A DNA stretch of 47,966 nucleotides from Gammaproteobacteria bacterium. GTDB lineage: Bacteria > Pseudomonadota > Gammaproteobacteria > Pseudomonadales > Azotimanducaceae. Within the stretch, counting starts at the first letter, position 1. Every line of letters starts with the position of its first letter. The stretch is taken from contig JAPPHD010000068.1 of assembly GCA_028821125.1 (NCBI GenBank), positions 1 through 47,966 of the forward strand, read 5' to 3'. The notes beneath the pieces were generated by a model. The model made no database searches and was not told the origin of the DNA. It worked only from the letters and a program-made list of their open reading frames with translations. The position numbers and the translations under genes were made by a program. Of the stretch, positions 5,282 through 47,966 are shown piece after piece.

Positions 5282-5287
5282 CGGGCG

Positions 5288-6286: not shown

Positions 6287-6323
6287 GGGTAGCGCTTGGT
6301 CGCTTCCAGGCAAGTGTGCACTT

Positions 6324-6346
6324 ACTATAGCGAAAACAACCGGTTG
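6324..6346 (-). promoter_or_regulatory. Likely promoter and LacI-type operator of the dehydrogenase/TRAP operon
   Basis: CAACCGGTTG at 6337-6346 is a perfect 10-bp palindrome with the central CpG typical of LacI-family operators. It lies just upstream of a minus-strand TATAGT (6329-6324) that could be the -10 hexamer of the operon. A repressor bound here would sit between -10 and -35. No convincing -35 is visible. Confidence 0.45.
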
Positions 6347-6507
6347 GAATCAGCGGCCAAGCCTGTGATCAGTGCTGGCGGGACAACGCTCCGGCCCGGC
6401 GAGCGAAAAGTGGCCGGGCGGGATCCTGGCTGATTCGACAATCTTTTCCGCGAATGGCAGGTATAGGGCAACGTGGCCGTCGTAGCGAACAGCAGGCATA
6501 AGGCGTC

Positions 6508-7380
6508 GTGGCAGTCGTACTGATCACCGGCTGCAGCAGTGGCTTCGGCCTTGAGGCCGCCCTGGCCTTCGCCCGGAACGGGGATACCGTGGTTGCCACG
6601 ATGCGCGACCTTGCGCGGAACGGGCGGCTTGCCGCGGCGGCGGAGAAAGAAGCGCTCGCCCTGGAGATGGCGCCGTTGAACGTGGCGGAGCCGCACACCT
6701 TTGCGGACACCGTTGGCCGGGTGGTCGAGGAGCAGGGCGGGCTCGATGTGCTGGTCAACAACGCGGGCATCAACCGCATCGGCGCGTTCGAGGATACGGC
6801 CGAAGCCACGCTGCGGGAGGTGATGGAGGTCAACCTGTTCGGTCCGCTGCTGCTGGCGCGGGCGGTTCTGCCGGTGATGCGTGAACAGGGCGGCGGCTGG
6901 ATCATCAACGTCAGCTCCCTGTCGGGCATAGCCGGATTGCCTGGCGATGTCTCCTACACCGCCAGCAAGTTCGCGCTGGAAGGCGCCATTGAAGCCCTGC
7001 GCCACGAGGTGGACCGCTGGGGTATCCGGGTGGCGCTCGTGGAGGCGGGGCTGCATGCCACCGGGATCTTCGCGGATGCCCTGTCCGGGCCTCTGCCGAT
7101 CCCGGCGGATTCGCCGTACCGGCCATTGATCGAGCGGCGCATGGCCGGCCTCGGCGCCAGAATCGGGGACGCTTTCCCGCCCCGGAAAGTGGGTGAACTG
7201 CTGGTTCGCATTGCCGAATCGGATGGCGAGCGGCTACGCTGGCCCGCGGATGAGGTGGCGGAACGCGTGATGGCCACGCTGTTCGGGCTGGATGACCCGG
7301 CGCGCGACGAGTTCCTGCGCGGCGTTGCCGGCAGCGACTGGTGGAGCCGCGGCGACCCGGGCCCGGACGCGCCTGGCTGA
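6508..7380 (+). CDS. Short-chain dehydrogenase/reductase (SDR, classical)
   Basis: 290 residues from a GTG. It has the classical SDR pattern: nucleotide-binding TGCSSGFG at residues 7-14, NNAG at 84-87, catalytic serine in VSSLSG near 137-139, and YTASK with Y150 and K154. Length and motif spacing fit an NAD(P)-dependent alcohol dehydrogenase or ketone reductase. It is divergent from the TRAP operon and 13 bp upstream of the DUF819 gene, so the two are probably cotranscribed. Substrate cannot be assigned. Confidence 0.88.
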   Translation: MAVVLITGCSSGFGLEAALAFARNGDTVVATMRDLARNGRLAAAAEKEALALEMAPLNVAEPHTFADTVGRVVEEQGGLDVLVNNAGINRIGAFEDTAEATLREVMEVNLFGPLLLARAVLPVMREQGGGWIINVSSLSGIAGLPGDVSYTASKFALEGAIEALRHEVDRWGIRVALVEAGLHATGIFADALSGPLPIPADSPYRPLIERRMAGLGARIGDAFPPRKVGELLVRIAESDGERLRWPADEVAERVMATLFGLDDPARDEFLRGVAGSDWWSRGDPGPDAPG

Positions 7381-7393
7381 GGCATAGAAAACC

Positions 7394-8524
7394 ATGACGA
7401 TTATTGGTCCGGACGACATCTTCGCCCTCGGCACGGTGTTCCTGGGCCTCGCCTGGTTCGGCTTCTGGGCGGACGGCAACCGCCTGGGCAAGACCACGTC
7501 CGGCGTCCTATGGGTCATCATGGGCGGCGTTGCGCTGTCAAATTTCGGAGTCGTTCCGTTCAAGGCGCCGGTGTACGACTTTATCGGCGGGTACCTGGTT
7601 CCTCTGGCGATTCCGCTCCTGCTCTACAAGGCCGACCTGCGCCGCATCCTCCGGGAGAGCGGGCCCGTAATCATCACCTTCGGCATAGCCTGCGCCGGTA
7701 CGGTGATTGGGGCCATCGCGGGGTTCTACCTCATCGACATGGGCGAGATTGGCGCCAAGGCGGCCGGAACCTATACGGGTGGCTGGACCGGCGGGGCCGT
7801 GAACTTCGTGGCCGTGGCCACCGCCGTGGAAATGACGCCCGATGAAGTCTCGGTAGCGATCAGCGCCAACAGCGTGGTCAGCATCATGGCCCTGATCTCG
7901 CTCATCACGCTGCCCTCCATCGTGCTGGTTCGCCGCCTGATACCGTCACGAATCATGGGTGAGTCGGAACGGGCAGCGGCCATTGCGGCCGAAGACGAAC
8001 CGGACAGGCTGCACACCAGCCACGTCGCGGGGGCGCTGGCGCTGAGTTTCGTCATCTGCGCCATTGCATACGCGTTCGCCGACTGGGTGGGGCTATCGAA
8101 CTACGCCATCCTGTTCGTCACCGTCCTGGCCCTGGTTGCCGCCAACGCCTTCCCGCGTGCACTTACGCGCCTGAAGGGCGACTTCGCGCTCGGCATGATC
8201 ATCATGTACCTGTTCTTCGCGGCCGTCGGTTGCGGCACGGATGCACTGGCGTTCGTCGATTCCGCCCTGAACCTTTTCTTCTACTCCGTGGTTATCCTGG
8301 CGGTGCACCTGGTCGTCGTGCTCACCGCCGCCAGGTTCCTGAAAATCGACCTGGCCGAGGCCATCGTAGCGGCGGGCGCGGCCCTGGTCGGCCCCGCACC
8401 TGCAGCCGCCATCGCCGCCGCCCGCGGCTGGAAGACACTCGTTACCCCCGGAATCATGTGCGGGATACTGGGCTATGCCATCGGCACCTTTATCGGCGTC
8501 GCAGTAGCAAAGATGTTGATGTAG
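7394..8524 (+). CDS. DUF819-family integral membrane protein
   Basis: 376 residues, with about ten predicted membrane segments. Family-typical features are the central GTYTGGWTGGAVNFVAVA, a glycine-rich pore-like segment, and a C-terminal GAALVGPAPAAAIAAARGWK. The family's function is not firmly established; its architecture resembles a secondary transporter made of two inverted halves, and the AYAFADW/LIPSRIM loop separates the two halves here. It follows the SDR gene closely, so it may carry the SDR's substrate or product. That is inference. Confidence 0.85.
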   Translation: MTIIGPDDIFALGTVFLGLAWFGFWADGNRLGKTTSGVLWVIMGGVALSNFGVVPFKAPVYDFIGGYLVPLAIPLLLYKADLRRILRESGPVIITFGIACAGTVIGAIAGFYLIDMGEIGAKAAGTYTGGWTGGAVNFVAVATAVEMTPDEVSVAISANSVVSIMALISLITLPSIVLVRRLIPSRIMGESERAAAIAAEDEPDRLHTSHVAGALALSFVICAIAYAFADWVGLSNYAILFVTVLALVAANAFPRALTRLKGDFALGMIIMYLFFAAVGCGTDALAFVDSALNLFFYSVVILAVHLVVVLTAARFLKIDLAEAIVAAGAALVGPAPAAAIAAARGWKTLVTPGIMCGILGYAIGTFIGVAVAKMLM

Positions 8525-9702: not shown

Positions 9703-12006
9703 ATGAAGATCGTCTGCCTGGGTGGCGGCCCGGCGGGGCTGTACCTGGCCATATCCATGAAGCTTCGCGACCCCCGCCACGAAGTATCGGTCTACGAGCG
9801 CAACCGGCTCGGCGACACCTTCGGCTGGGGCGTGGTGCTGTCGGACCAGACGGTGGAAAACCTGGAGGCGAACGACCCGGTGAGCGCCCGGGCCATGACC
9901 GGTGAACTGGTGCACTGGGACCATATCGATGTCTGCCTGCGCGGCCGCACGGAGCGCTCGGGCGGACACGGGTTCATCGGCATCAGCCGGCAGAGGTTGT
10001 TGCGCATCCTCAGCGATCGGGCCGCGGAACTCGGCGTTGACCAGCACTTTTCGACCGAGATAGAGCCGGAAGAACTTAAGGCGCGGTTTCCCGACGCGGA
10101 TCTCATCATCGCCGCCGACGGCCTCAACTCCCGGGTACGCGAACTTTACCGGGATGATTTTGAGTGTGAGATCGACCTGCGGCCGAACAAGTTTGTCTGG
10201 CTCGGCACCGAGCAGCACTTCGACGATGCCTTCGGGTTCTTCTTCGAGCGTACGGAGCACGGCTGGGTGTGGGCGCATGCCTACCAGTTCGACCGGCACA
10301 CCTCCACCTTCATTGTCGAGTGCACGGAGGAGGTGTACGACCGCTGGGGGTTCGAGACCATGAGCCACGAGGAAAGCGCCGAGACGTGCCGGCGGATCTT
10401 CGCCGAACACCTGGGCGGCCATCCCCTGCTCACCAACTCCGCCCACATCCGGGGCTCCGCCTGGATCAACTTCCCGAGGGTGCTGTGCAACCGCTGGATC
10501 AAGGACAACATCGTGCTCATCGGCGATGCAGCGCACACGGCCCACTTCTCCATCGGTTCCGGCACCAAGCTCGGCATGGAGGATGCGATCAGCCTGGCGG
10601 AGCACCTGCATGCCGGCAAACCCCTGACGCAGGCCCTGAACGACTACCAGGAAGACCGCCAACTGGAGGTGCTGCGCCTGCAGAGCGCGGCGCGCAATTC
10701 CATGCGGTGGTTCGAGGAGGCGGACCGCTACCTCGACTACGACCTCAAGCCGTTCACCTATGCGCTCTTGACGCGCAGCCAGCGGGTCAGCCATGAAAAC
10801 CTGCGGCTGCGCGACAAGGGCTGGCTCGAGAGCGTGGAACTGGAGTTCCAGCGCGCGGCGGGCGTCAACAGCGACCGTGCGGTCGCCCCGATGTTCACAC
10901 CGTTCCGGCTGCGCGGCATGGAACTGGTGAATCGCGTGGTGGTATCGCCCATGTCGATGTACAGCGCCGCCGAGGGCATGCCCGACGACTGGCACCTGGT
11001 GCACTACGGGGCGCTGGCCAAGGGCGGCGCGGGCCTGATCTATACGGAAATGACCGACGTGGGCCCCGATGCCCGCATCACCCCGGGGTGCGCGGGCATC
11101 TGGAACGACGGGCAGGAGGCCGCCTGGCGCCGGGTGGTCGGGTTCGTGCACCGGCACAGCCAGGCGAAATTCTGCCTGCAGCTCGGTCACGCCGGGCCCA
11201 AGGGGTCGACCCGTGTGGCCTGGGAAGGCATGGACGAACCGTTGGGGAGCGGCAACTGGCCACTGATCAGCGCATCGTCGACGCCGTATTCTCCGGTCAA
11301 CCAGGTTCCACGTCGGATGGGCCGGTCGGACATGGACGCTGTTTGCAACGACTATGTGGAGGCGGCCCGGCGGGGCGCGCGGGCCGGGTTCGACATGCTC
11401 GAACTGCACTACGCCCACGGCTACCTGATGTCGGCCTTCATTACGCCCTTGCTGAACCGGCGGGCGGACCGCTATGGGGGCTCGCTGGAAAACCGCCTGC
11501 GGTTTCCCCTGCAGGTCTTCGCGGCGGTGCGGGAGGTCTGGCCGGCGGACAAACCGATATCGGTGCGAATTTCCTCAAACGACTGGGTAGGAGACCTGGG
11601 CGTAACCCCGGAAGAGGCGGTTGAGATTGCCGGAGCGCTGAAGGATGCGGGCGTGGACATCGTCGATGTTTCCGCCGGACAGACCAGTCCGGATGCCGAC
11701 CCGGTGTACGGGCGCATGTTCCAGACTCCGTTCTCCGACCGGATACGCAACGAAGTGGGCATTCCCACCATGGCGGTGGGCAATATCTACGAGGTGGATC
11801 ACGTCAACAGCATTCTGGCGGCGCGGCGCGCAGACCTTTGCTGCCTGGCGCGCCCGCACCTGATGGACCCGAACTGGACCCTGCGCGCGGCGGCCCAGCA
11901 ACACTACCAGGGCGAGGCGGTGCGGGTTCCGGTGCAGTACGAGACCGGCTTCGAGCAACTCGAGCGCAATCTGCAGCGGGCGGCAGAGATGGCGCTGAAC
12001 GCCTGA
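9703..12006 (+). CDS. Fused FAD monooxygenase / old-yellow-enzyme (salicylyl-CoA 5-hydroxylase or 2-aminobenzoyl-CoA monooxygenase/reductase type)
   Basis: 767 residues in two parts. Residues 1 to about 385 are a group A flavin monooxygenase: GGGPAG at 7-12, the DG region [14 protein letters not shown] near 145, and the GD motif [17 protein letters not shown] near 272. Residues about 395-767 are an old-yellow-enzyme barrel with [22 protein letters not shown] at its start, the [19 protein letters not shown] active-site segment, and the C-terminal [10 protein letters not shown]. The same fusion is known for 2-aminobenzoyl-CoA monooxygenase/reductase and for bifunctional salicylyl-CoA 5-hydroxylases, which hydroxylate and then reduce an aromatic CoA thioester. 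No CoA ligase lies beside it here, so the substrate supply is elsewhere. Confidence 0.92.
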
Positions 12007-28794: not shown

Positions 28795-28812
28795 GGCCTG
28801 TTAACAGGCCCT
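28793..28812. terminator. Perfect palindrome spanning both convergent stop codons
   Basis: AGGGCCTGTTAACAGGCCCT is a 20-bp perfect palindrome: an 8-bp GC-rich stem with a TTAA loop. It contains part of the PhzF TAG stop (28792-28794) and the whole TAA of the epoxidase-cyclase gene (28803-28801). It can fold in RNA from either strand, so it probably acts as a bidirectional terminator. Confidence 0.72.
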
Positions 28813-31800
28813 GGCCGAAGGATGCGCCCTGGCTGCGTCGTGGCGTGTCCGGCGCCGGCTTTCGTACAGGCCGAGGGCATGCAGCGGAAAGTACTGCCGG
28901 TAAAGGACGTAGTCGAGCAGCGCCGTGCGGAAGAAGACCCCTGCCATATCCTGCCGGGGCCAGGTTCCATCCGGTTGCTGGGTGTCGATCAGGAACTTGG
29001 CTCCCCGCGCGATCGCCGCCCAGTTGGAATCGCCCGCCTCAAGTAGCCCAATCAATGCCCAGGCTGTCTGGATGACCTGACTCTCACTGTGGGGAACGTA
29101 GCGGCCGCTCAGGCAGCCGCTGTGATGCTCGCCCCAACCGCCGTCGTCACGCTGGTGGCCGAGCAGCCATCGGCAGGCGAGTCGCAGTGCCGGATCGCCA
29201 GGATCGGCCCCCGCGGCAACCAGGCCCCTGATGCCGAAGAAGGTGCCGTAGATGTACTGCACGCCCCATACGCCACGCCATGCCCCGTCGCTTGCCTGGG
29301 TGCGTCGGAGCCAGGCGTCGCCCCGCTGCACCGCACGCTGGGCGTTCGCGTCGGCGATGGCGGGGAAACGATCGCGGCACGCGGCCAGTGCCGCGAGGCA
29401 GGAGGCCGTGCACTCCACGTAGGAACGCTCCGTCATCGACTCGCCGAACATCTCGGCCGGGTTCAGCCATTCGAGGCCGAATCGCGAGCGTCGTGCCTCG
29501 TAGCTGCCGAAGCCGCCATCGCGGTTCTGGCCGCGCAACATGAACGCGATGGCTTCGCGGAGCGCCCGCGGGTCGCCCGTCCCGGGACGGGCCGCGAGCA
29601 GGCCGAGCACGGCCTCGGCCGTGCAGTCGGTTACCGGCCAGCCATGCCACACGCCGGCGAAGCACCAACCGCCCTTCGGGTCGTTCCGGTACGCGGCCCG
29701 GTATCCGTGGAAGGTTTCGCGGATCTGTTGGCTGCGAAGGAATTCACTGCCTCTCTCGAGCGCATCCGTCGCACCGGGGACGCTTCGGGCGGTGGCCAAC
29801 GCCTGCACGGCGAATCCCGTGTCCCAGGATGCGCTTCTCGCCCCGGTGACGCGCGTGCCGCCGTCCGCGTCCTCCCAGATCCAGCCGTCGGCCCGGGCCA
29901 GCGCCTCCCGGCAGTCGCGGTCATCGGGATCCTGCAGCCACAACGCAAGGATGTTGAGAAACCCGCTGACGGGGGAGATGCTCGTGTGGCTGGAACTGGC
30001 AAGCTCCCAGCGAATGCGCTCTGCCAGCGCCTTCACGCATCGTCCGCGCAGCCGCCTGGAATGCAGCCGTTCGTAAGCCCGCCCGATGGCATAAAGGCCC
30101 CGAAGCCGTATCGTGGGTCTCGCGAAGAGATCGCCTTCCCGCAGCCGCTTGCGGCCGGCGGCGAAGTCGACACGCTCGAACCCTTCCGGAAAGAGCTCCT
30201 CCCGCAGTGCTTCGATCAGCGGCGTCACCGGCGCCTGGAACCGATGCGGGTACACCGTCGCCATCGCCATGTAAATGAGGCGCGTGTGGCAGTACCAGTT
30301 CGACGGGTGCAGCGGTATGCGGCCGGGCAGGAGCCACAGCTCCGGCAGGATGGGATTCAGGCCACGCCAATCGTAGAGGTTCAGCAGGGCCAGCCAGAAC
30401 TTTCCCCAACCCGGTATGCGGTGCACGCCTTCCGAGCGGAGAAAGCGCCCGGCGCGCGCAATGAGAGGATCCTCCCGGTCGATGCCGAGCAGCCGCGCAG
30501 CCACATAGACGAGGGCCGTCACGAAGAGGTATGGCCGTGAGTGCTCATGGAGACCCCAGAGCCCTTCCTCGAGCCGTGTGCGCCCGAACTGGCGCAGCAC
30601 AAGCTTCCTGCGGCCCGGTTCCAGTTGCAGCCCCATGATGTGATGCAGCAGCACGTACTGTGCGGTCAGCATCGGACACCAGACCATCTCGCCTTCCCAG
30701 CGACCGTTCTCGCGCTGCAGCCCAAGCAACCGTTCGGTGGCGCGTTGCAGCGTCTCGCGCGCATCGATTGCCGCGGTCGGGAACGCCGGCCTGGGATCGC
30801 GGCCCGGGGCGTGCATGGAGGTCGGCAATGCGCGCGGCAACATGCCCCAGACGCGCTCGTGGCGTTCGCTGGGCGTTTGCCCGGCCCTGTGCAGCCGGCG
30901 ATATCCACGCAGGAAATGTCCGACACGGACACCGAGCGCACGAGCCAGTTCACGGGCGCGGCGCCAGGCCGGCAAGTCGACGGAGTGACGGAACGCGCTG
31001 AAAACCGCATCGACCGCGACAGTCAGGAACGTAAGGCCCAGGCGAACGACCGATGCGTCTTCACAGGCCAGGAGGCGCGTGGTCCTGTCGCGGACTGCGG
31101 AGCTTGCCCGCCAGCACCGGTAGACTGCCTGCCGCATCGCCGCCGCCTCGACCCGGTGGTCGGCAAAGATCTCGTACAGCCCGAGTGCCAGGAACTCCGG
31201 CGCCCGGGTCGCCTGCCCACGATTCGCCACGAACCTGCCGAAATCCCCGTTCTGGGCAATGGCCAGCGCATCCTCGAATCCGAGGGTCATTCCGACCGCT
31301 GTCAGTGGGTGGTAGTGTCCCGCCGCGTCGCCGATGAGCACCCGCCGCGGGGTCCCGTAGGTGACCCGGGGTTGCAGCTCGTTGGCCGCCGCCTGGAAGT
31401 TGCCGCGTCGCAACGTATCGACGAATGCGGAGCGCACCGGGCCCGGCAACAGGTCGGCGTAGGATTCCAGCAGCATGGCCACCCGGTCACGGGGAAGCCA
31501 GTGGTCCAGCGGAACGTCGACGATGATGCGCACCCGCCGCGCTCCCAGATTGAACATGAGGATAGGGCCCGGTCCTCCGAGGACCACGTGCCCGTATCCC
31601 TCGTGGGGGAGGCTGACGCCTTCGGCGACCAACCCGATCATGCGCGAGCAGGTTGCGCGTTGCGGCGACAGCCCGAGCGACCGGCGCACGATGGAAGCGC
31701 GGCCGTCCGCGCCGATCACCCGTTCCGCCGCCATGAACCGTTCCGTGCCGTTGAGCGCGAATGAAAGCCGCCCGTCTTCGACCGTGCGCACGCGCCCGCC

Positions 31801-32178
31801 GCGATAGAAGTCAACGCCCGCTTCGTGTTCCAGCGCCGCGTGCAGTTCGCTCACGAGCGCCGCATGCTCGTACGTGAGGCCCGTGGCTCCGCCGGTATAG
31901 GGCAGCAGGATCGACTCCGAACCGTCTTCCGGAAACACCGCGAAGCCGTTGCAGGTACTGCTGTTGGGGCAGCCGTCAAGCGCGATGCCGATGTCGTGCA
32001 ACATCCGCACGGCGGGTGGATGGAGCCATTCGCCGGCCAGGCGGCCGGACGCTCTGGGATTGGCTTCGAGAAGGGCGACGCGGGCCCCCTTGCGCGCATG
32101 GGCGAGCGCGCACAGGCTGCCTACCGGGCCCGCACCGACGACCGCGACGTCGAAACCGGCAGATACGGCGACGTTCAT
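28801..32178 (-). CDS. Fused squalene epoxidase-type FAD monooxygenase / oxidosqualene cyclase
   Basis: 1125 residues; the ATG at 32178 overlaps the CYP51 stop as ATGA. Residues 1 to about 400 are an FAD monooxygenase: GAGPVG at 15-20, VIGADGRASIVRR near 154-166, and VLIGDAAGHYHPLTAVGMT near 280-298, which resembles the GDA...HPLTGGGMT of squalene epoxidases. Residues about 470-1125 are an oxidosqualene cyclase: PVTDCTAEA with catalytic D851, the OSC motif rather than the DxDD of squalene-hopene cyclases; NWYCHTRLIYMAM (627-639); GVWGVQYIYGTFFGIRGL; several QxxxGxW repeats; and the ending YRQYFPLHALGLY. The chain should epoxidise squalene and cyclise it to a protosterol. Both domains look complete. 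Which protosterol forms cannot be read. A fused pair is unusual, since these enzymes are normally separate. Confidence 0.93.
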   Translation of the reverse strand: MNVAVSAGFDVAVVGAGPVGSLCALAHARKGARVALLEANPRASGRLAGEWLHPPAVRMLHDIGIALDGCPNSSTCNGFAVFPEDGSESILLPYTGGATGLTYEHAALVSELHAALEHEAGVDFYRGGRVRTVEDGRLSFALNGTERFMAAERVIGADGRASIVRRSLGLSPQRATCSRMIGLVAEGVSLPHEGYGHVVLGGPGPILMFNLGARRVRIIVDVPLDHWLPRDRVAMLLESYADLLPGPVRSAFVDTLRRGNFQAAANELQPRVTYGTPRRVLIGDAAGHYHPLTAVGMTLGFEDALAIAQNGDFGRFVANRGQATRAPEFLALGLYEIFADHRVEAAAMRQAVYRCWRASSAVRDRTTRLLACEDASVVRLGLTFLTVAVDAVFSAFRHSVDLPAWRRARELARALGVRVGHFLRGYRRLHRAGQTPSERHERVWGMLPRALPTSMHAPGRDPRPAFPTAAIDARETLQRATERLLGLQRENGRWEGEMVWCPMLTAQYVLLHHIMGLQLEPGRRKLVLRQFGRTRLEEGLWGLHEHSRPYLFVTALVYVAARLLGIDREDPLIARAGRFLRSEGVHRIPGWGKFWLALLNLYDWRGLNPILPELWLLPGRIPLHPSNWYCHTRLIYMAMATVYPHRFQAPVTPLIEALREELFPEGFERVDFAAGRKRLREGDLFARPTIRLRGLYAIGRAYERLHSRRLRGRCVKALAERIRWELASSSHTSISPVSGFLNILALWLQDPDDRDCREALARADGWIWEDADGGTRVTGARSASWDTGFAVQALATARSVPGATDALERGSEFLRSQQIRETFHGYRAAYRNDPKGGWCFAGVWHGWPVTDCTAEAVLGLLAARPGTGDPRALREAIAFMLRGQNRDGGFGSYEARRSRFGLEWLNPAEMFGESMTERSYVECTASCLAALAACRDRFPAIADANAQRAVQRGDAWLRRTQASDGAWRGVWGVQYIYGTFFGIRGLVAAGADPGDPALRLACRWLLGHQRDDGGWGEHHSGCLSGRYVPHSESQVIQTAWALIGLLEAGDSNWAAIARGAKFLIDTQQPDGTWPRQDMAGVFFRTALLDYVLYRQYFPLHALGLYESRRRTRHDAARAHPSARAC

Positions 32179-33569
32179 CGCAGCACGTTCGCGCCGGGAA
32201 GCCGCCGATAGCGCAGCCGGCAAGGGAGCCTGGGCCCGGTAACCCAGCTACCGTAGTTCGGGGCCGGAAAAGGCGCATCGAGGGTGAAGTGGAAGCGGTC
32301 CAGCAGCACGCTCCAGAGCGCCTTGATCTGCAGGATGGCGAAATTCTTGCCCATGCACCGGTGCTTGCCGCCGCCGAAACCGATCAGCGCGTAGGGGTGC
32401 TGCTTGTGTTCGCTGGCAGGCGCCGCGAACCGGTCGGGGAAGAACCGCTCCGGGTCGGCGAAGACGTGGGGCAGCCGGTGCGCGACCGCCGGCGACACCA
32501 TCGCCATGGTGCCGGCGGGCACCATCTGGCCACGGTATCGCAGGGGCCTGACCACCTTGCGGATGAGCAGGATCAATGGCGGGTGCAGCCGTTCGCACTC
32601 GCGCACGGCGTTCTCCAGTACCTGTTGCCGCTTGAGGCTCGCGAGGCTCATCGCGGGGTCGTCGGCGTAGACCTCGCACATTTCATGCCTTACCCGGGCG
32701 AGATACCCCGTGGCCCTCACCAACTCGAGCCCCGTCCAGGTGGCGAGCACCGCGCTCGTATGCTGGCCGGCGAACAGCGCCGCTACGAGGATCCCCGTGA
32801 TCTCGGCATCGGTGAGTGACCGGCCGTCCTTGTAACGGGCGCACATGAGGGCCTGCATGAAGTCGTCGGGTTCCGCGCCCGATGCCCGCCGCTCGGCCAT
32901 GACGCGGCCGAAAATCTCGGTGACCTTGCGCCGGGCCCGGTCGCGGCGGCGATGCGCGGGGATCGGCAGCCTCGGGAAAAAGAACCCGATGGTATTGATG
33001 CCGTTCTGAAGCTCGTGATAGGCCTCGGCGAATCCCGTATCCACCTCGCGGCGGACTTCCTCGCCGAGCAGGCAGCGGCTGGCAATGTTCACGGTGAGCT
33101 GGTTCATCGCCGCCGGGAGATCGAGTTCGCCCTCGGCGCCCATACCGTCGGCGAACAGGCTCGCCTCTTCGAACATGGCCCTGGCGAACCGGCGCATGGC
33201 GGATTCCCGAAGCGCGGGGAACAGGAAGCCGAGCTGTTCGGTCATGATGTCGGGAGCGACGTCGTAGACCACGCCACGCCCGAATATGGGAACCGTGAAC
33301 TGGTAGACGGATTTGGGGTCGAGTTGGTCGTCCGGGGCCTTGAAATAGACGTCGTGGGCTTCGGGACCGGCAAAAAGGGCGAAATCCCGCGGGCCGAGCC
33401 GGAACCGGAACAGTTCTCCACGGTCCCGGTAGCCACGGGCGAGGAAAGCGACCGGATCCCTTTGGAACTCCCGCAAGTGACCGAGCAGCGGCCATCCCCC
33501 GGCGAGGTCGGGAAGCGCCTCGCTCCGCGGGGCGGGGCGGTTAACCGCCAGTTGTGCCTGATCCGCCAT
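32175..33569 (-). CDS. cyp51: Sterol 14-alpha-demethylase (cytochrome P450 family 51)
   Basis: 464 residues from the ATG at 33569 (a GTG at 33587 is possible). CYP51 signatures: the B-C region YQFTVPIFGRGVVYDV (89-104), matching YxxxxPxFGxGVxYD; the I-helix LFAGQHTSAVLATWT, with the CYP51-type AGQHTS at 267-272; ExxR in ECERLHPP (324-327); and the haem loop FGGGKHRCMGKNF with C405. CYP51 removes the 14-alpha methyl of lanosterol-type sterols in three oxidations. There is no fused ferredoxin, unlike Methylococcus CYP51, and no reductase nearby, so redox partners are elsewhere. It overlaps both neighbouring genes, in step with a coupled operon. Confidence 0.93.
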   Translation of the reverse strand: MADQAQLAVNRPAPRSEALPDLAGGWPLLGHLREFQRDPVAFLARGYRDRGELFRFRLGPRDFALFAGPEAHDVYFKAPDDQLDPKSVYQFTVPIFGRGVVYDVAPDIMTEQLGFLFPALRESAMRRFARAMFEEASLFADGMGAEGELDLPAAMNQLTVNIASRCLLGEEVRREVDTGFAEAYHELQNGINTIGFFFPRLPIPAHRRRDRARRKVTEIFGRVMAERRASGAEPDDFMQALMCARYKDGRSLTDAEITGILVAALFAGQHTSAVLATWTGLELVRATGYLARVRHEMCEVYADDPAMSLASLKRQQVLENAVRECERLHPPLILLIRKVVRPLRYRGQMVPAGTMAMVSPAVAHRLPHVFADPERFFPDRFAAPASEHKQHPYALIGFGGGKHRCMGKNFAILQIKALWSVLLDRFHFTLDAPFPAPNYGSWVTGPRLPCRLRYRRLPGANVLR

Positions 33570-34638
33570 CGCGTTCCAGAAACTCACGCCATTTGCGCAC
33601 GGTCACCGTCTGAAAGGCCTGCACCGCCGGGTTCAGTTCGACAGGCGGGGCATCCCAATGGCTTTCGTAGCCTTCCTGTTCGGCTTCGACCGCGAACCGG
33701 TCCTGATCGAGGAGCGGGCCGATCAACAGGCGGTTCGAGAGCTTCATCACCGCCGTCATCGCAAAGCGGGGAAAGCGGAACGGCAGCCACGGAATTTTCA
33801 GCGACCTGAAATAGAACAGGAAGAACACCCGCGTGGTGCGTTCATCGATGGGCAGCACGAACAGCCAGTGCTTGATGGCGCCGTCGGTGTCGGACCACTG
33901 GTAGGGGTACTCGTAACAGAGTTCGATGCGACCGGTGTCGATGCGGTCGTGTTCGACGAAACGACCGGAGAACCGCCCGCGGCCGACCCGCGAGGCGTAG
34001 GCGACGTGCACGCTGTCGTCGATGGTTTCGCATCGCGTCAGGGCCGCGCCCTCGAACGGGCGGTACTGCCGGTGCAGATGCGCGTGGGTGAAATCGCTGA
34101 CGTTGTCGATCACCATCGAATGGTGGGCGGACCAGGTGAATACCAGCGGCACGCACGCCCATCGCGCCGGCCCTTCGAGCTCGGGAATGTGCGGAATCTG
34201 CCGGTCTTGTGCCTGTGCCGGGTCTCCGGGGAACAGCCAGACGAGCCCGTAGCGCACCTTGACGGGATAGGTTCTGAGCGTGAGCCTGGGAAAACCGCGC
34301 CCGTAGCGGTCGTGGGGAATCTCGACGCAGCGTCCGTCGCCGTCGTATTGCCACCCGTGGTAGGCGCACACCAGCCGGCATCCCGTCACATCGCCCAGGG
34401 AAAGCTTGATCTGCCGATGTGCGCAGCGGTTCTCCACCGCATGGAACGAATCGTCCGCCGTCCGGTAAAGGGCGATGGACCGCTTCCAGAAAACGACCTC
34501 CACCACCGTTTCAGGCTTGATCCGGCGCACTTCCTCGACCGCGTACCAGTAGTTCGGGTCGAGCCCCGCCGCCCGCGCCTGCTGGCGAAGCCGATCCGCA
34601 TCCTCGAAGGCGGGGGGTGTGCTTGTTTGCGGGTTCAT
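33541..34638 (-). CDS. sdmA: Rieske-type oxygenase, SdmA-like sterol C-4 demethylase
   Basis: 365 residues. The Rieske cluster ligands are C72, H74, C91 and H94 (RCAHRQIK ... CAYHGW). The mononuclear iron site is in IDNVSDFTHAHLH (about D182, H185, H189). The C-terminal part has hydrophobic PWLPFRFPRFAMTAVM. Oxygenases of this type, SdmA in Methylococcus capsulatus, oxidise a C-4 methyl of sterols, a route distinct from the eukaryotic ERG25. The assignment rests on fold plus its place between an SdmB-like reductase and CYP51; a different sterol position is possible. The ATG overlaps the upstream stop as ATGA. Confidence 0.85.
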   Translation of the reverse strand: MNPQTSTPPAFEDADRLRQQARAAGLDPNYWYAVEEVRRIKPETVVEVVFWKRSIALYRTADDSFHAVENRCAHRQIKLSLGDVTGCRLVCAYHGWQYDGDGRCVEIPHDRYGRGFPRLTLRTYPVKVRYGLVWLFPGDPAQAQDRQIPHIPELEGPARWACVPLVFTWSAHHSMVIDNVSDFTHAHLHRQYRPFEGAALTRCETIDDSVHVAYASRVGRGRFSGRFVEHDRIDTGRIELCYEYPYQWSDTDGAIKHWLFVLPIDERTTRVFFLFYFRSLKIPWLPFRFPRFAMTAVMKLSNRLLIGPLLDQDRFAVEAEQEGYESHWDAPPVELNPAVQAFQTVTVRKWREFLERDGGSGTTGG

Positions 34639-35774
34639 GCCGGCCGGTCAGCCATCGGGCGCGCCGCTTCGTCTGCCGCCGGGCCTGGCGGTGAGGCGGC
34701 GGGAACCGGTGAAGGCGGTCTTGCGTCGGGGTTCCGGATCGCATTGCGCCCGTAGTGGAATGCATAGGCTTCGCGAACCGCCGCCCGGATACTCGTGGGC
34801 CGGTATCCCAGTTCCTGTCGGGCCTTGTCGATGTTGGCCCGACGCCGCATCTTGAGCAGCCGGATGGCCCCGGGGGTGAAGCGCTGCGGGAAGTTCGGAT
34901 GGAATCGGCTCAGGTAAAAGCTGGCCACCTCGGAAAAGGCGTACATGATCGGCGCCGGAATCCGCCGGTGCGGCCGTGGAATCCCCGTAGCCTCTTCGTA
35001 GAGATCGAGGATGTCGGATATCGTCTTGTATTCGCTGGCGAAGATGTACTTCTCGCCGCTGCGCCCGTGCCGCATGCACAGGAGATGCCCGGCGACGATA
35101 TCCCGCGCGGCGACAAACGCGAAGCCCCCGTCGACGTAGGCGTGCAGCTTGCCGTTGGCGTAGTCGCAGAGCGTTCTGCCCAGCCGCGACGGCAGATAGT
35201 CCGCGCCGCCGACCACCGCGCAGCAGGTGGCGATGACCACATCCTGCCCGATTGCGGCCGCGCGCAGACACTCGTGCTCGACGAGCACCTTGCTGCGCTC
35301 GTAGGGCATCGTGCGCTCCATGGGATAGAACGGCATGGATTCGTCGCTCGGAGCCGACGGGTCGTCGAGGTCGTAGCCCACCGCACTGAAAGACCCGGTA
35401 ACGACGACCCTGCCCGCCCCGGTTTCCCGCGCCGCCTGCAGCACGTTGCGGGTACCGAGCACGTTGCACTCGAACAGCTCGCGCCGGTGGGCACGATTGC
35501 CGTCGATGGTCGAGACCATGGCCGCGCAGTGGTAGACCCCCGCACAGCCCTCAAGAGCCCGCCGTGTGGCGTCAAGATCCCGAATGTCCGCGTGAGCGCG
35601 TTCGACGTCCAGGCCGTCCAGCGCCTCGTTGCCGCTCTCCCGCCTCGACAGGACCCGCACACGAACGCCATCGTCCAGCAATCTGCGCACCAGATTGGCG
35701 CCCACATGGCCGGACGAACCGGTAACCAGGACGGGGTGCCTTGGTTCTGAAATCTTTCGGTCCACATCCCGCAC
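34635..35774 (-). CDS. sdmB: NAD-dependent epimerase/3-beta-HSD family protein, SdmB-like
   Basis: 379 residues. Extended SDR: nucleotide loop TGSSGHVG at 18-25, and active site YERSK with Y158 and K162. The long C-terminal part includes FAFVAARDIVAGHLLCM and ends in a Pro/Ala-rich tail. In bacterial sterol C-4 demethylation an SDR of this family (SdmB) takes the oxidised C-4 intermediate through decarboxylation and 3-ketone chemistry. It is first in the minus-strand sterol operon; its stop overlaps the Rieske gene. It could also be a general 3-beta-hydroxysteroid dehydrogenase. Confidence 0.82.
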   Translation of the reverse strand: MRDVDRKISEPRHPVLVTGSSGHVGANLVRRLLDDGVRVRVLSRRESGNEALDGLDVERAHADIRDLDATRRALEGCAGVYHCAAMVSTIDGNRAHRRELFECNVLGTRNVLQAARETGAGRVVVTGSFSAVGYDLDDPSAPSDESMPFYPMERTMPYERSKVLVEHECLRAAAIGQDVVIATCCAVVGGADYLPSRLGRTLCDYANGKLHAYVDGGFAFVAARDIVAGHLLCMRHGRSGEKYIFASEYKTISDILDLYEEATGIPRPHRRIPAPIMYAFSEVASFYLSRFHPNFPQRFTPGAIRLLKMRRRANIDKARQELGYRPTSIRAAVREAYAFHYGRNAIRNPDARPPSPVPAASPPGPAADEAARPMADRPA

Positions 35775-35949: not shown

Positions 35950-38289
35950 TTGAGTAGCGAAGACGGCCTGAAGCGCGAGATCGAGGCGTTGCGCGAACAC
36001 GCTTCCCGGCTGTGCGCCGCCGTGCGGCGCATCAATGCGAACCCCGAACTCGACAGCGTATTGGACGCCGTGCTCGAAAACGCCCGCGCGATGACCGGGG
36101 CCGGCTACGGCGTGATTGTCACGGTCGATGCCGCCGGCCAGCCCGAGGACGTCGTGTATTCCGGTTTCCCGGAGGAGACGCGCCGCAAGATGGTGGATGG
36201 GGACGGCGGCCGGCGATTGTTCGATCACTTGCGCAAGCTGCCCGGCGTCCTGCGGCTCGACGACGTGCGCCCCTACGCCAGCGCGAACGGCCTCTCAGAC
36301 GTGCCGCTTCCGGAAGCGGCTTTTCTGGGCACTTCGATGCGCCACGGCAGCGAGTACGTCGGGAGCATCTTCCTGGCTGCGAACGGCCGGGGCGCCGCGT
36401 TCGCCGATGCGGACGAGGAGGTGCTCGAACTGTTCGCCTCACAGGCGGCGGCCGCGGTCGCCAACGCTCACATGCACCGGGAAGAGCGGCGCGCCCGGGC
36501 CAACCTCGAGGCGCTGATCGACACCTCGCCGGTGGGCGTGGTGGTGTTCGACGCGCCGAGCGGTCAGCTCGTGTCACTCAACCGGGAGGCCACCCGTATC
36601 GTGCGCAGCCTGAGCAGCCCCGGCGGCGCGGAAGAGGAGCTTCTGCGGCTGGCCACCTGCCGGCTTCCCGACGGCCGTGAGATCGCTCTCGACGAGTTCT
36701 CGCTGGCGCAGGCCTTCGGGGATGCCGCAACGTTGCGCGCCGAGGAGATCGAGCTCTCGGTGCCGGACGGCCGCAGCGTGACGACGCTGGTCAACGTGAC
36801 ACCGATACGCTCGGAGCAAGACGTTGTCGAGTCGGTGGTCGTCACGCTGCAGGACCTCGAGCCGCTTCGCGAGCTCGACCGGCTGCGGGCAGACTTCCTG
36901 GGCATGGTCAGCCACGAGCTGCGCACCCCGCTGCTGGCGATCAAGGGCTCCACCGGTACGCTGCTCGGCTCTACGCGGACCCTGGATCCGGCGGAGCTGC
37001 GCGAGTTCCATCGCATTATCGACGAGCAGGCCGACCAGATGAGCAGCCTGCTCACCGACCTGCTGGATGCGGGGCGCATCGACACCGGTACGCTTTCGGT
37101 CGCCCCGGAGCCCCTGGAGGTCGGCGCGCTGCTGGAGCGGGCGCGGACCACCTTCGCCGGCGGCGGAGCCCGCCACAACGTGCTGGTGGACCTTCCATCC
37201 GACCTGCCGCGGGCAATGGCCGACCCCCAGCGTATCGTGCAGGTGCTGAACAACCTTCTCGCCAATGCCGCCAGGCACTCGGCGGAGACGGCGCCGATCC
37301 GCATCACGGCGGAACGCCACGGCGTGCACATCGCCGTCTCCGTCGCCGACGAAGGGCAGGGCGTGCCGGCGGAGCAACTTCCGCGCCTCTTCCAGAAATA
37401 CCCCATCGACGGGAGGATCGGGCTGCGGGCGTCCGGACTTGGTCTGGCCATCTGCAAGGGGCTCGTGGAAGCGCACGGCGGCCGCATCCGGGCCGAGAGC
37501 GGCGGCGCGGGCAGGGGCACGCGGTTCACGTTCACGATCCCGGCCGCGGGAGAAACCGGCAAAGTCAGTGGCGGCGCACCGGGCCCGCTGCGCGAAGGGG
37601 GCGCCCAAACGACCGTTCTCGTGGTGGACGACGATCCCAACACGCTTCGCTTCGTTCGTGATGCGCTGACTGACGCGGGTTACGTCACGCTGGTGACCGG
37701 CGACCATCGCGAGCTTGCCGACATGATCCGGACCGAGCGGCCGGCACTGGTCCTGCTCGACCTGATAATGCCGGGTGCCGACGGCATCGAGTTGATGGAG
37801 AGCGTGCCGGAGCTCGGTGACCAGCCGGTGATCTTCATCTCCGGTTACGGCCGCGACGAGACCATTGCCCGGGCGCTCGATGCCGGCGCCGTCGATTATA
37901 TCGTCAAGCCCTTCTCGCCGACCGAGTTGACGGCGCGAATCGCCGCGGCGCTGCGCGGGCAGGAGGAACCGGAGCCCTTCCGTCTGGAAGCCCTCGCCAT
38001 CGAGTTCGACAGGCGCCGGGTGACGCTGGCGGGCCGTTCCCTGGAACTGACGCCCACCGAGTTCGAGCTGTTGCGTGCGCTCGCGCTCAACGCGGGGCGG
38101 GTCATGACCCACGATGACCTGCTGCGCCAGATCTGGAGCCGCCGGGCGGGCAGCGACCCGAAAATCCTGCGGGCGTTCGTGAAGAAGCTCCGTCAGAAGC
38201 TTGGGGACGACGCCGAACGGCCGACGTACATTTTCGGTGTGCGCGGCGTCGGTTACCGCATGGCACAACCGGGAGACGCAACACCCTGA
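35950..38289 (+). CDS. Hybrid histidine kinase with receiver and OmpR-type DNA-binding output in one chain
   Basis: 779 residues from a TTG with AGAGGA 7 nt upstream. Domains in order: an N-terminal helix; GAF (about 30-175); PAS-like (about 183-300); HisKA with H322 in MVSHELRTPLLAIKG; HATPase with NNLLANAARH, DEGQGVP and SGLGLAICKGLVEAHGG (about 425-530); a receiver with DDDP at 560-563, phospho-acceptor D604 (LLDLIMPGADG) and K653; and a winged helix (about 678-775) of OmpR type, ending RGVGYRMAQ. No membrane segment, so it senses a cytoplasmic signal. Sensor, receiver and DNA-binding output are normally on two proteins. It is divergent from the sterol operon and upstream of squalene synthase, so control of both is the natural guess. 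Confidence 0.93.
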   Translation: MSSEDGLKREIEALREHASRLCAAVRRINANPELDSVLDAVLENARAMTGAGYGVIVTVDAAGQPEDVVYSGFPEETRRKMVDGDGGRRLFDHLRKLPGVLRLDDVRPYASANGLSDVPLPEAAFLGTSMRHGSEYVGSIFLAANGRGAAFADADEEVLELFASQAAAAVANAHMHREERRARANLEALIDTSPVGVVVFDAPSGQLVSLNREATRIVRSLSSPGGAEEELLRLATCRLPDGREIALDEFSLAQAFGDAATLRAEEIELSVPDGRSVTTLVNVTPIRSEQDVVESVVVTLQDLEPLRELDRLRADFLGMVSHELRTPLLAIKGSTGTLLGSTRTLDPAELREFHRIIDEQADQMSSLLTDLLDAGRIDTGTLSVAPEPLEVGALLERARTTFAGGGARHNVLVDLPSDLPRAMADPQRIVQVLNNLLANAARHSAETAPIRITAERHGVHIAVSVADEGQGVPAEQLPRLFQKYPIDGRIGLRASGLGLAICKGLVEAHGGRIRAESGGAGRGTRFTFTIPAAGETGKVSGGAPGPLREGGAQTTVLVVDDDPNTLRFVRDALTDAGYVTLVTGDHRELADMIRTERPALVLLDLIMPGADGIELMESVPELGDQPVIFISGYGRDETIARALDAGAVDYIVKPFSPTELTARIAAALRGQEEPEPFRLEALAIEFDRRRVTLAGRSLELTPTEFELLRALALNAGRVMTHDDLLRQIWSRRAGSDPKILRAFVKKLRQKLGDDAERPTYIFGVRGVGYRMAQPGDATP

Positions 38290-38341: not shown

Positions 38342-38430
38342 AAAAACCCTGTACGCTCGCAGGCTGGCTTGTGCGGGGCGGTTCGTTCGCGCGCCAGTGG
38401 CGCAACGGATTCCGCGTGAGCCCTCGTACG

Positions 38431-39579
38431 ATGGAAGTCAGCGGGATGCGCCGGATGCCAACCATGCCTGTTGCCCGACCCGTTGCGGGTCCTTCCCGAG
38501 CCGCCACGGCGGGATCGGTTTTCGCCGCGCCCCGGGCGCGAACGCAAACGAAAGCCTTGACCGAGCGGGCATGGGCTTACCAGGCACGGGCTCTTCAAGG
38601 GGTGTCCCGGACCTTCGCTCTCACCATTCCACAGCTTCCGCGAGAGTTGCGGGAAGTGGTCGGGAATGCCTATCTTCTTTGCCGCATCGCAGACACCGTT
38701 GAGGACGAACCCGCACTCGATGCCGCAGACAAGCGGGAGTACCTGAGGCGCTTCGTCGGTGTCGTTGCGGGCCGGGTTCCGGCCGGCCCGTTCGCGACGG
38801 GGTTGCGCGCGTTGCTGTCGGGGGCCACGACAGACGCCGAGAAGGAACTGGTTGCCAATACCGCGCTGGTCGTCCATCTGACTCACGGGTTCCGAAACGC
38901 GCAACGCGAAGCGATCCTGCGGTGCGTGGACATCATGACCGCCGGCATGGCCGAGTTCGCCGACCGGGCGCCCGAGGGGCTCGGCACCGTACGGGAGCTC
39001 GACCGGTACTGCTACCACGTCGCGGGCGTGGTCGGAGAGATGATCACGGACCTCGCCTGCGAACATTCCGGCGAGATCGCGTCCCGGCGGAACCGGCTGT
39101 ACCCGTTGTCTTCGGAATTCGGACGCGGTCTGCAACTCGTCAACATCCTGAAGGACGTCTGGGAAGACCGATCGCGGGGCGTGTCCTGGTTGCCGCGCGA
39201 GGCGTTCGGGGGCGGTCCGGGCCCGCCGGCCCCGGTCGCGGGCGACCCGGGTTTTGCCGAAGGCATGCTCACTCTCGTGGGTATCGCCCGCGGGCGTCTC
39301 GAGGCGGCGCTGGAGTACACCCTGACGATTCCGCGGCATGAACCGGGCATCCGGCGGTTCCTCCTGTGGACGCTGGGGATGGCGGTGCTGACGCTCCGCC
39401 GCATCGAGGCGAATCCGCATTTCGCCGCCGGCGACGAAGTCAAGATTCCGCGTCGCCAGGTTCGGGCGACCGTCGTGGCGACGAGTGTGGTGGTACGGTC
39501 GAACCACGCTCTGCGCTGGTTGTTCGACGCGGCGGCGAAGCCATCCCCGAAAGGGGCCGGCGTTGAAAGGCCGACCTGA
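38431..39579 (+). CDS. sqs: Squalene synthase (farnesyl-diphosphate farnesyltransferase)
   Basis: About 382 residues; starts at 38371, 38416, 38431 or 38446 are all possible. The homologous core begins about 50 residues in, at ALQGVSRTFALTIPQLP. First aspartate-rich motif DTVED (88-92) in LCRIADTVEDEP; YCYHVAGVVGEMITDL; second motif DVWED (242-246) in NILKDVWEDRSRG. These match the head-to-head prenyl synthase family and the eukaryote-like one-step squalene synthases, rather than the HpnC/HpnD pair of hopanoid producers. It condenses two farnesyl diphosphates to squalene, the substrate of the fusion protein. No FPP synthase is in the window. Confidence 0.93.
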   Translation: MEVSGMRRMPTMPVARPVAGPSRAATAGSVFAAPRARTQTKALTERAWAYQARALQGVSRTFALTIPQLPRELREVVGNAYLLCRIADTVEDEPALDAADKREYLRRFVGVVAGRVPAGPFATGLRALLSGATTDAEKELVANTALVVHLTHGFRNAQREAILRCVDIMTAGMAEFADRAPEGLGTVRELDRYCYHVAGVVGEMITDLACEHSGEIASRRNRLYPLSSEFGRGLQLVNILKDVWEDRSRGVSWLPREAFGGGPGPPAPVAGDPGFAEGMLTLVGIARGRLEAALEYTLTIPRHEPGIRRFLLWTLGMAVLTLRRIEANPHFAAGDEVKIPRRQVRATVVATSVVVRSNHALRWLFDAAAKPSPKGAGVERPT

Positions 39580-45965: not shown

Positions 45966-46832
45966 ATGAGCCCGCTCCGTGTCGAACCATTGAATGCGCC
46001 CTTCGGCGCCCGGGTCACCGGTCTCGACCTGACGACGGAGTTTTCTGTGGAAACGCAGGAAGCGATTCGCGAAGCCATCGACACCTGGTCGCTGCTCTGC
46101 TTCGACAAGCAACCGATGACGGACGAAGCCCACCTCGCGCTCACACGCCGGCTTGGCGAACAGGAGGTGGCGCGCGTGACGGTCGACAGTACCGGGAAGG
46201 CGGCCAGGTTTATCACCATCGGCAACGTTCATGACGCCGGCAATGTCCAGAATAGCGCACACGCCCGAATTCGCTACCAGACCGGTAACGAATTGTGGCA
46301 TTCGGATTCCTCGTTCCGGCGCGTGCCCTCATTCGTGACCATCACCCATGCCTATGAGGTGCCGGGAGAGGGCGGCGAGACAAGCTTCGCAAGCATGCGC
46401 CACGCCTACGCGGGGCTGCCGCCCGATAGGCGGGAGTTGATCGATCCTCTCCATGCGATCCACGACTTCGTCTTTTCCCGTGCCCAAGCCGCGCCTGTCG
46501 ACCCGATTCATGCCGCCTCCCTACCGCCCGTGGAACACAAGCTCGTGCGGACAAATCCGGGAAACGGGCTGAAGAATTATTTCGTCGGTTCGCATGCACG
46601 ATCCATCGTCGGCTGGACGGGGGTCGAAAGCCGCAAGCTACTTGATGATCTCCTTGAGCGGGCGACGGTTCCCGAAGACGTCTACCAGCATCGGTGGCAT
46701 GCCGGCGACACCTTGATCTGGGACAACCGGTGCCTGCTACATCGCGGCAACGGATACGATGCCGACCGCTGGCGCCGCAGACTGCGCCAGACCCGAGTTG
46801 CCGGAGCCTGTCCGACCCTCAAGGAGCCGTGA
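45966..46832 (+). CDS. TauD/TfdA-family Fe(II)/2-oxoglutarate dioxygenase
   Basis: 288 residues. The iron triad is H112 and D114 (ELWHSDSSF) plus H259 ([13 protein letters not shown]); the following arginines ([10 protein letters not shown]) include the 2-oxoglutarate anchor. N-terminal [11 protein letters not shown] is typical of TauD. Such enzymes hydroxylate, desaturate or cleave small molecules. In this place it is likely a tailoring step in the LuxR-controlled pathway rather than taurine use, as no sulfonate transporter is present. Its stop overlaps the convergent LRR gene by 14 bp. Confidence 0.9.
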
Positions 46833-47966
46833 GCCGTGCGCGCAGCCGCGAATCCGTGAAGACGTACGTGGTGGGATTTTCGGAAACGCGCAGCCACACT
46901 AGCTTCGGCAGGTCGCCGAGCACCGAGACGTCGCGCAACCGGTTCCCGGCAAGATCGAGCCGCCGCAGCGACCGCACGTCCCGCAGCAGCGCCGCGTCCG
47001 CCACGCGGTTGTCTCCCAGGCCAAGGTGGGCGAGGTGCGGGAGTCCCCACAGCGGCACCAGGTCCTCGACCCGGTTGCTGTCGAGCAGCAGCACCTCGAG
47101 CCGGCGCAGCTCCGACAGCGGCCGGATGTCGGCCACGCGATTGCCAGAGAGGTCGAGGCGGCGCAGGGCCGTGAGCCCCGCCAGCGGCGAGGTGTCCGAG
47201 ATCGCATTGCCCGACAGGTCGAGCACGCGCAGGTGCGGGAGACTGGCGAGTGCCGAGAGGTCGACCACGGCGTTGTCGCGCAGGTCGAGCACCTCGAGGC
47301 CCGCCATCGCCGCCAGCGGCCAGAGATCGTCGATGCGGTTGCCGCTGAGGTCGAGCACTTCCACGTCCGCCAGTTCCGCCAGTGATGACACATCGGACAG
47401 ACCGCTCGCCGACAGGTCGAGAACCTCGACCTTCGCCGCGCTCAGGAATCGGGTCTCCGGCAACGGGTCGAGCGGTTCGATGTTCCCTGCAGTAACGTCG
47501 TCCCCGTTCACCCGCCGGGCCTGCCGGACCGGCTGGCCGGTCAGCGCCGGCGCCGGGTTGTAGGAGCGGTCCTGCAGCGGGTGCATCGCTGCGGGCAGGT
47601 AGCTGACGGACACGCTCTCCGACTCCTCGATGGGTCGCGATAGCGTCAGCAGCGCCTCGCCGTCGACTACCGCAACCGACTCGACGGGAATCGTCAAGGT
47701 GCCGCTGGTCAACGGACCCGCCGCGACCACGAAGTCGCGCGGCGACGGCACCGAGCCGCGGTCCAGGGTCCGGTCGTAGCGCAGCGTCAACACCGCACCG
47801 GACACGGTCGCGCGCGTGAGCGAGGTGCTCGACGCCGACCCGCACGACACGCCGACGTCCTCGGAGTGCCGGCAGTTGTGCAGGCCCCAGCCGCCGAACG
47901 GGCAGTCCGCCAGGCGCGACTCGCTGCCCGTACACTGGACATCGTCCATCCAGATCGTCCCGGTGC
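46819..47966 (-). CDS. SRCR - SwmB - leucine-rich-repeat surface protein (5' partial)
   Basis: The reading frame enters from beyond the right edge; 382 residues are visible. It begins within a scavenger receptor cysteine-rich domain: [19 protein letters not shown] followed by [17 protein letters not shown], an almost textbook SRCR C-terminal half with four cysteines. Next is a SwmB-like beta domain ([15 protein letters not shown] ... [13 protein letters not shown]). Then eight 22-residue leucine-rich repeats of the form LxxLxVLDLSGNxIxDLxPL, and a short cap. SRCR domains are mainly animal; in bacteria they are uncommon and usually extracellular. The protein is probably secreted or surface-bound and binding-oriented. 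No membrane anchor in the visible part. Confidence 0.9.

Follow-up and report, generated by a model that had tools for sequence, protein, structure and literature searches.

Squalene epoxidase (SE) and oxidosqualene cyclase (OSC) joined in one polypeptide are already a known architecture, which is hardly studied. In the literature as accessible here, it was published twice, in passing. MsbE is encoded by the msb locus of a gammaproteobacterial symbiont of Melophlus sarasinorum and was described in 2020 (PMC7074536). According to the accessible text, it combines a squalene epoxidase and a sterol cyclase in one protein, has flavin residues in the N-terminal domain, and carries a key Val in its cyclase that was taken as lanosterol-type. 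The other report (2023, PMC10070321) mentions 'fused SMO/OSC homologs' in its methods, where their N-termini were trimmed before tree building. Therefore, the initial annotation of the present locus, which knew of no described example, was wrong on this point. The available portions of PMC4919349, PMC10202945, PMC12004948, and PMC13277303 do not mention the SE-OSC fusion. Among the literature matches listed, which covered few subscription papers, there was no biochemical study and no activity or product data for the fused enzyme. A related case is found in the symbionts of Ircinia, in which steroid gene clusters were reported from 115 of 537 MAGs (2022, PMC9531527). These ERG24-CYP51-LSS clusters occur across phyla. 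The gene is named LSS/ERG7, and the word 'fused' is absent from the main text as accessible. The LSS codon alignment has 3765 positions and the mean cluster length is 5910 bp. From these two values, we infer that the Ircinia LSS is probably a fused gene rather than a lone cyclase. The absence of squalene epoxidase from the enriched-gene list of those clusters may likewise be due to the fusion. Other bacteria perform the same two reactions with separate SE and OSC genes; those of Methylococcus capsulatus, MCA2872 (SE) and MCA2873 (OSC), are listed with consecutive tags. The CYP51-ferredoxin fusion of the same species, as described in the accessible part of PMC13277303, also joins partners of bacterial sterol synthesis. 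However, it connects an enzyme with its electron donor, whereas the fused SE-OSC connects two consecutive pathway enzymes.

The window analysed here is a stretch of 47,966 nucleotides of gammaproteobacterial DNA. It carries a fused SE-OSC gene of the MsbE type at 28801..32178 on the minus strand, identified by its single open frame, Pfam matches and conservation. The gene runs from an ATG at 32178 to a stop at 28801 (3378 bp, 1125 aa plus stop). There is no stop codon between the two domains, and the plus strand of the same span is interrupted by stops. The initial annotation had reported the fusion in one uninterrupted 3378-bp frame without giving a strand, and this was borne out on the minus strand. 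The frame extends open to a TTG at 32223, and the TTG version (P0001) is 15 residues longer. Counted on P0001, the Pfam matches are FAD_binding_3 (25–323), SE (169–413), SQHop_cyclase_N (493–786), and SQHop_cyclase_C (797–1121), all above their cut-offs. The motifs lie where they had been placed before, with GAGPVG at 15–20, GDAAGHYHPLT at 283–293 followed by AVGMT to 298, and DCTAE starting from D851. Residues ∼7–433 (30880..32160, minus strand) form the squalene epoxidase domain, C-terminal helices included. The linker covers residues ∼434–470 (30769..30879, minus strand), as delimited by the secondary structure and pLDDT of the structure model. The oxidosqualene cyclase domain covers residues ∼471–1125 (28804..30768, minus strand), as given by Pfam, structure match and invariant residues. 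The model of the fused protein was built from an 81-row alignment and has a mean pLDDT of 86.5 and a pTM of 0.88. In the model, the linker consists of a short helix (436–450) and then a stretch of low pLDDT. The two-domain description is identical to that of the 'fused SMO/OSC homologs' in the accessible text of PMC10070321. As in the published description of MsbE, the SE comes first and the sterol cyclase follows in the same frame, flavin residues are found in the N-terminal domain, and a Val (V849) occupies the lanosterol-type position of the cyclase.

The fused gene is the last of four genes on the minus strand, in the order SdmB-like, SdmA-like, CYP51 and fused gene, and their ends overlap as in an operon. 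The SdmB-like NAD-dependent dehydrogenase (34635..35774, minus strand) has Epimerase and 3Beta_HSD matches and scored 309.4 bits with NF052578. The SdmA-like Rieske oxygenase for C-4 sterol demethylation (33541..34638, minus strand) has Rieske and VanA_C matches and scored 393.8 bits with NF052579. Because both scores are under the cut-off of 600, the two are named only SdmB-like and SdmA-like. CYP51, the sterol 14-alpha-demethylase (32175..33587, minus strand), has a Pfam p450 match and CYP51 structures as its best PDB sequence matches (E 1.7e-103); its stop codon and the start codon of the fused gene overlap in a shared ATGA. A squalene-synthase-like gene (38371..39579, plus strand; PF00494 at 176.5 bits, above the cut-off; TIGR01559 at 92.8 bits, below the cut-off) is likely responsible for substrate supply. 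The msb locus, in its accessible description, has the same neighbours, namely an NAD(P) oxidoreductase, a Rieske oxygenase and CYP51. It differs in having a msbC-type sterol reductase. No C-14 reductase lies between SdmA and CYP51 in the window, and a relative on another contig of the genome shares 61–74% identity with 57 copies beside fused genes. The genome as assembled (G000, 97.3% complete) has no second cyclase, and the fused protein is its sole SQHop_cyclase_C match. The same holds for six further fusion-bearing genomes; the fusion-bearing G123 has a second cyclase. Avoidance of competition with squalene-hopene cyclase, which had been suggested as an advantage of the fusion, was therefore rejected as its reason in this genome.

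The distribution of the fusion was determined in several genome sets. In a kinship draw of 97 genomes, the window's own included, P0001 as query (E 1e-20) matched eight genomes. The own genome and five others gave near full-length matches, and two contained distant cyclases matching in the cyclase half only. The two-domain frame is thus present in 6 of the 97 genomes. The five other fused proteins of the family, three from the same genus and two from another genus, share 61–67% identity with that of the window, and all six align through both domains with a variable linker between them. Within the genus, a cyclase match was found in three of eight other genomes, every one in the fused form. A public scan that covered one genome for each species, with the cyclase half as query, gave 200 relatives, and the best 80 of them were retained. 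A single frame holds both domains in 78 of these best 80 of 200 relatives, with a possible bias to fused relatives from scan patterns that were derived from fused proteins. Such recurrence in both sets is more than chance would give. The two exceptions are L078, which begins at the edge of its contig, and L027, whose domains lie in different overlapping frames through either a natural split or an assembly error. The epoxidase part is incomplete in four of the 78 (L030, L051, L061, and L083), and the frame of L030 also stops within the cyclase. The kept loci with a rank belong to Pseudomonadota, Nitrospirota, Chloroflexota, Actinomycetota, Acidobacteriota, Gemmatimonadota, Candidatus Binatota, Rhodothermota, and Bacteroidota. 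The sole Bacteroidota row is the cut L078 and was not counted, so the fusion was found in eight phyla. Sponge appears in the record title of two kept loci (L015 and L071), and many other kept bins are presumably sponge-derived, judged from their names. An even class draw of 369 genomes was searched with an oxidosqualene cyclase model (E 1e-60). There were 46 matches, only six of them above 600 bits; the remainder scored no more than 254 bits and resemble squalene-hopene cyclases. Three of the six genomes have the fused form (G000, G274, and G123), and two are unfused (G231 and G343), the epoxidase gene following immediately downstream of the cyclase gene. In the sixth, G268, a cyclase frame (L127, 662 aa) stands alone, with no adjoining epoxidase, and an epoxidase frame (L141) reaches the end of a different contig; the domains of this genome may be fused, split into separate frames, or both. 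Therefore, the fusion may not always be kept, as in L027 and possibly G268. In an even phylum draw of 398 genomes (E 1e-100), no match was obtained beyond the window's own genome.

Both domain identities proposed in the initial annotation agreed with Pfam, the nearest solved relatives, the invariant residues and the fold matches of the model, and these assignments support its view that the two domains catalyse consecutive pathway steps. The fold of residues 6–376 is common to many FAD monooxygenases, and several general FAD families also match the N-terminal half. The SE family (PF08491) taken alone is unspecific, as the control genomes of E. coli and C. vibrioides contain matches to it too. 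These facts would allow a different FAD monooxygenase, of the UbiH/VisC or PHBH type, in place of a squalene epoxidase. This is nevertheless very unlikely. SE is the top Pfam family of this half with 86.6 bits (cut-off 20.1) against 71 bits, and it is the only SE match above the cut-off in the genome. Human squalene monooxygenase (SQLE) is the best solved relative by sequence, far ahead of others, and residues 7–433 of the model match its fold including the C-terminal helices. Among the 50 structure matches listed, only human SQLE aligns past residue 376, to ∼433, whereas the alignments of the other FAD monooxygenases end near 376. The residues after 376 therefore belong mostly to the C-terminal helices of the epoxidase, which leaves ∼434–470 as the true linker. 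The FAD motifs GxGxxG, DG, and GD are also intact, with G15, G17, G20, D158, G159, G283, and D284 each found in 80/80 rows of the census. In the C-terminal half, human lanosterol synthase is the best solved relative by sequence, and residues 471–1114 of the model match its fold. DCTAE with the catalytic Asp is present. D851, C852, C923, H631, and V849 are invariant (80/80 rows), and C852 and C923 align with human C456 and C533. The cyclase reached 515.1 bits with TIGR01787 for squalene/oxidosqualene cyclases (cut-off 322.7), 722.1 bits with TIGR03463 for 2,3-oxidosqualene cyclase (under the cut-off of 851), and 284 bits with TIGR01507 for squalene-hopene cyclase (under the cut-off of 431.1). 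It is classed as OSC-like by modelled structure and catalytic residues, without reaching the TIGR03463 cut-off. Its product is likely a lanosterol-type sterol. V849 occupies the place of human V453, which is Val in 80/80 rows. The place of human C449 is taken by His in 79/80 rows (His845), and Ala stands at or beside the place of human T381 in 80/80 rows (Ala780). Because these two positions differ from human lanosterol synthase, V849 alone does not fix the product, and two active domains might mainly produce parkeol or another tetracycle or pentacycle instead. We regard this outcome as unlikely in view of the invariant Val and of the CYP51 and SdmA/B-like neighbours, which suit a lanosterol-type product. 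In the accessible text, MsbE was also annotated as lanosterol-forming from a key Val, presumably at the same position as V849.

The evolution of the two domains was followed in an 80-row alignment, which underlies the residue census, both trees, the distances and the dN/dS values; an extra partial row (L126) was added for the model and profile search, giving 81. The alignment contains 72 of the 80 scanned loci. L058 and L068 (presumably the contigs of L003 and L004, whose lengths and profile scores they share), L027 and L078 were left out, as were L030, L051, L061, and L083, which are cut or incomplete. Pairwise SE and OSC distances over the 80 fused rows have a correlation of 0.82, and none of 999 permutations was as high, which indicates that the two domains mostly travel together. 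Purifying selection acts on both domains: from non-independent pairs, the median dN/dS is 0.26 in SE (222 pairs) and 0.17 in OSC (223 pairs), compared with 0.49 in the linker stretch (223 pairs). A FastTree cyclase tree with the unfused L128 as its root places the fused rows, together with L127, L027, and L078, in a single group (support 99) that excludes the unfused L124. G123 and G268 are the earliest branches and several phyla are clustered inside, a pattern in better agreement with horizontal transfer than with wrong binning alone. In the FastTree SE tree, L027 is placed near the base (support 84), but it is nested in the OSC tree, which speaks against the halves always travelling together. 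The unfused L124 and L128 have adjacent genes in the order OSC then SE, whereas the fused protein has SE then OSC, so that direct joining of neighbouring genes in the former order was rejected as its origin. Both unfused genomes in which an SE was found beside the OSC carry the two genes next to each other.

The single frame itself could be an assembly or binning artefact, since the titled records are metagenome bins. The chance of this is negligible. The initial annotation had named an assembly join or a stop around residues 400–470 as a refutation, and both are countered by the recurrence of the join in separate assemblies. The same join recurs in the five other family genomes at 61–67% identity, and in 78 of the 80 kept loci, which stem from several projects and include two contigs with chromosome in their titles (L050 and L080). 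The artefact was rejected by this conservation across separate assemblies. The fused protein is very probably a bifunctional enzyme of bacterial sterol synthesis, placed probably at the membrane surface, which converts squalene through oxidosqualene into a lanosterol-type sterol; the activity of both domains is deduced from the intact families. The N-terminal FAD domain would use O2 and a reduced cofactor to convert squalene into 2,3-oxidosqualene. D851 of the C-terminal cyclase would then protonate the epoxide, and oxidosqualene would be folded into a lanosterol-type tetracycle. The product would be processed further by CYP51, the C-14 reductase encoded on the other contig, and the SdmA/SdmB-like enzymes. 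A 1:1 stoichiometry and a shared placing are enough to explain the join. Local capture of oxidosqualene by the fused protein is plausible, its channelling between the domains is possible, and a closed tunnel would be conjecture. The fusion might equally serve only to secure co-expression, a 1:1 ratio and joint horizontal transfer, while oxidosqualene diffuses between the domains via the membrane; we consider the chances of this evenly balanced. It is favoured by the spread of the gene across eight phyla, the separate overlapping frames of L027, and the weak constraint on the variable stretch 391–475 (mean identity 38%, dN/dS 0.49). On the other hand, this stretch is confined to 81–93 residues in the 80 rows, R418 is kept in 80/80 of them, and the pTM of 0.88 may point to a settled domain placing in the model. 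If the proposed function is true, channelling of a very hydrophobic intermediate could be tested directly on a one-protein squalene-to-sterol enzyme, which would also be a convenient tool for making sterols in bacteria. A broader picture can be put forward only tentatively. One gene would lead from squalene to the sterol skeleton and pass oxidosqualene between its halves, and would have spread horizontally over at least eight phyla, many of its hosts probably being sponge symbionts, with 11 of 70 loci lacking close relatives of the usual neighbours.

Compared with the two published mentions as far as they are accessible, the near-universal fusion among the kept relatives (78/80; best 80 of 200), the joint evolution of the domains, the domain order opposite to the gene order of two unfused relatives, and the occasional occurrence of the fused gene where close relatives of the usual neighbouring genes are missing are new. 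The last point comes from a neighbour census with matches at 50% identity or more, in which 10 of the 80 loci were unscored (upstream sequence shorter than 1.5 kb, without a CYP51) and 70 were scored. All four upstream genes are present in 55/70, and the C-14 reductase lies between SdmA and CYP51 in 55/70. CYP51 with a part or none of the rest was found in 3/70, namely L027 (without the reductase), L052 (without SdmB), and L018 (CYP51 alone). L052 and L018 are both close to a contig edge. There is no close CYP51 beside the fused gene in 12/70. Of these, L075 has the reductase and SdmB alone, and the remaining 11 have none of the four genes. Weaker P450 matches (24–35%) are seen in L037, L038, L045, and L088 among these 11 loci.

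The order of the two genes was examined in L124 (6414-10060) and L128 (5257-8882), two relatives from unfused gammaproteobacteria with adjacent cyclase and epoxidase genes. In both, the cyclase gene comes first and the epoxidase gene second. The fused protein has its domains arranged the other way round, with the epoxidase preceding the cyclase. A different arrangement was found in the relative L027. Its positions 4461-7926 hold complete epoxidase and cyclase domains in two different, overlapping frames, the sole such case among the best 80 of 200 relatives. L027 also lacks the C-14 reductase gene between SdmA and CYP51, as does the window.

The fused gene was also found apart from close relatives of the usual sterol genes. 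At a match threshold of 50% identity, CYP51, the reductase, SdmA and SdmB were all absent from eleven loci, each with at least 3.5 kb of upstream sequence (L032, L037, L038, L045, L048, L063, L073, L079, L084, L085, and L088). Weaker P450 matches are present in four of them (L037, L038, L045, and L088). The sterol pathway of these bacteria may end at the first sterol, or the remaining genes may be located elsewhere.

Other multidomain genes lie on the contig. A gene at 35950-38289 (+ strand), flanked by the sterol operon on one side and by the squalene-synthase-like gene on the other, encodes a single protein combining histidine kinase, receiver and DNA-binding output domains (GAF, HisKA, HATPase_c, Response_reg, and Trans_reg_C). 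A second flavoenzyme fusion, matching FAD_binding_3 and Oxidored_FMN, is encoded at 9703-12006 (+ strand). At the contig end, an open frame is truncated (46819-47964, – strand). The first part of what remains of this frame corresponds to the final third of a scavenger receptor Cys-rich (SRCR) domain and is followed by an SWM_repeat match and leucine-rich repeats. SRCR is an animal-type domain, and the rest of this contig holds genes of bacterial type, such as RecA and MutS.
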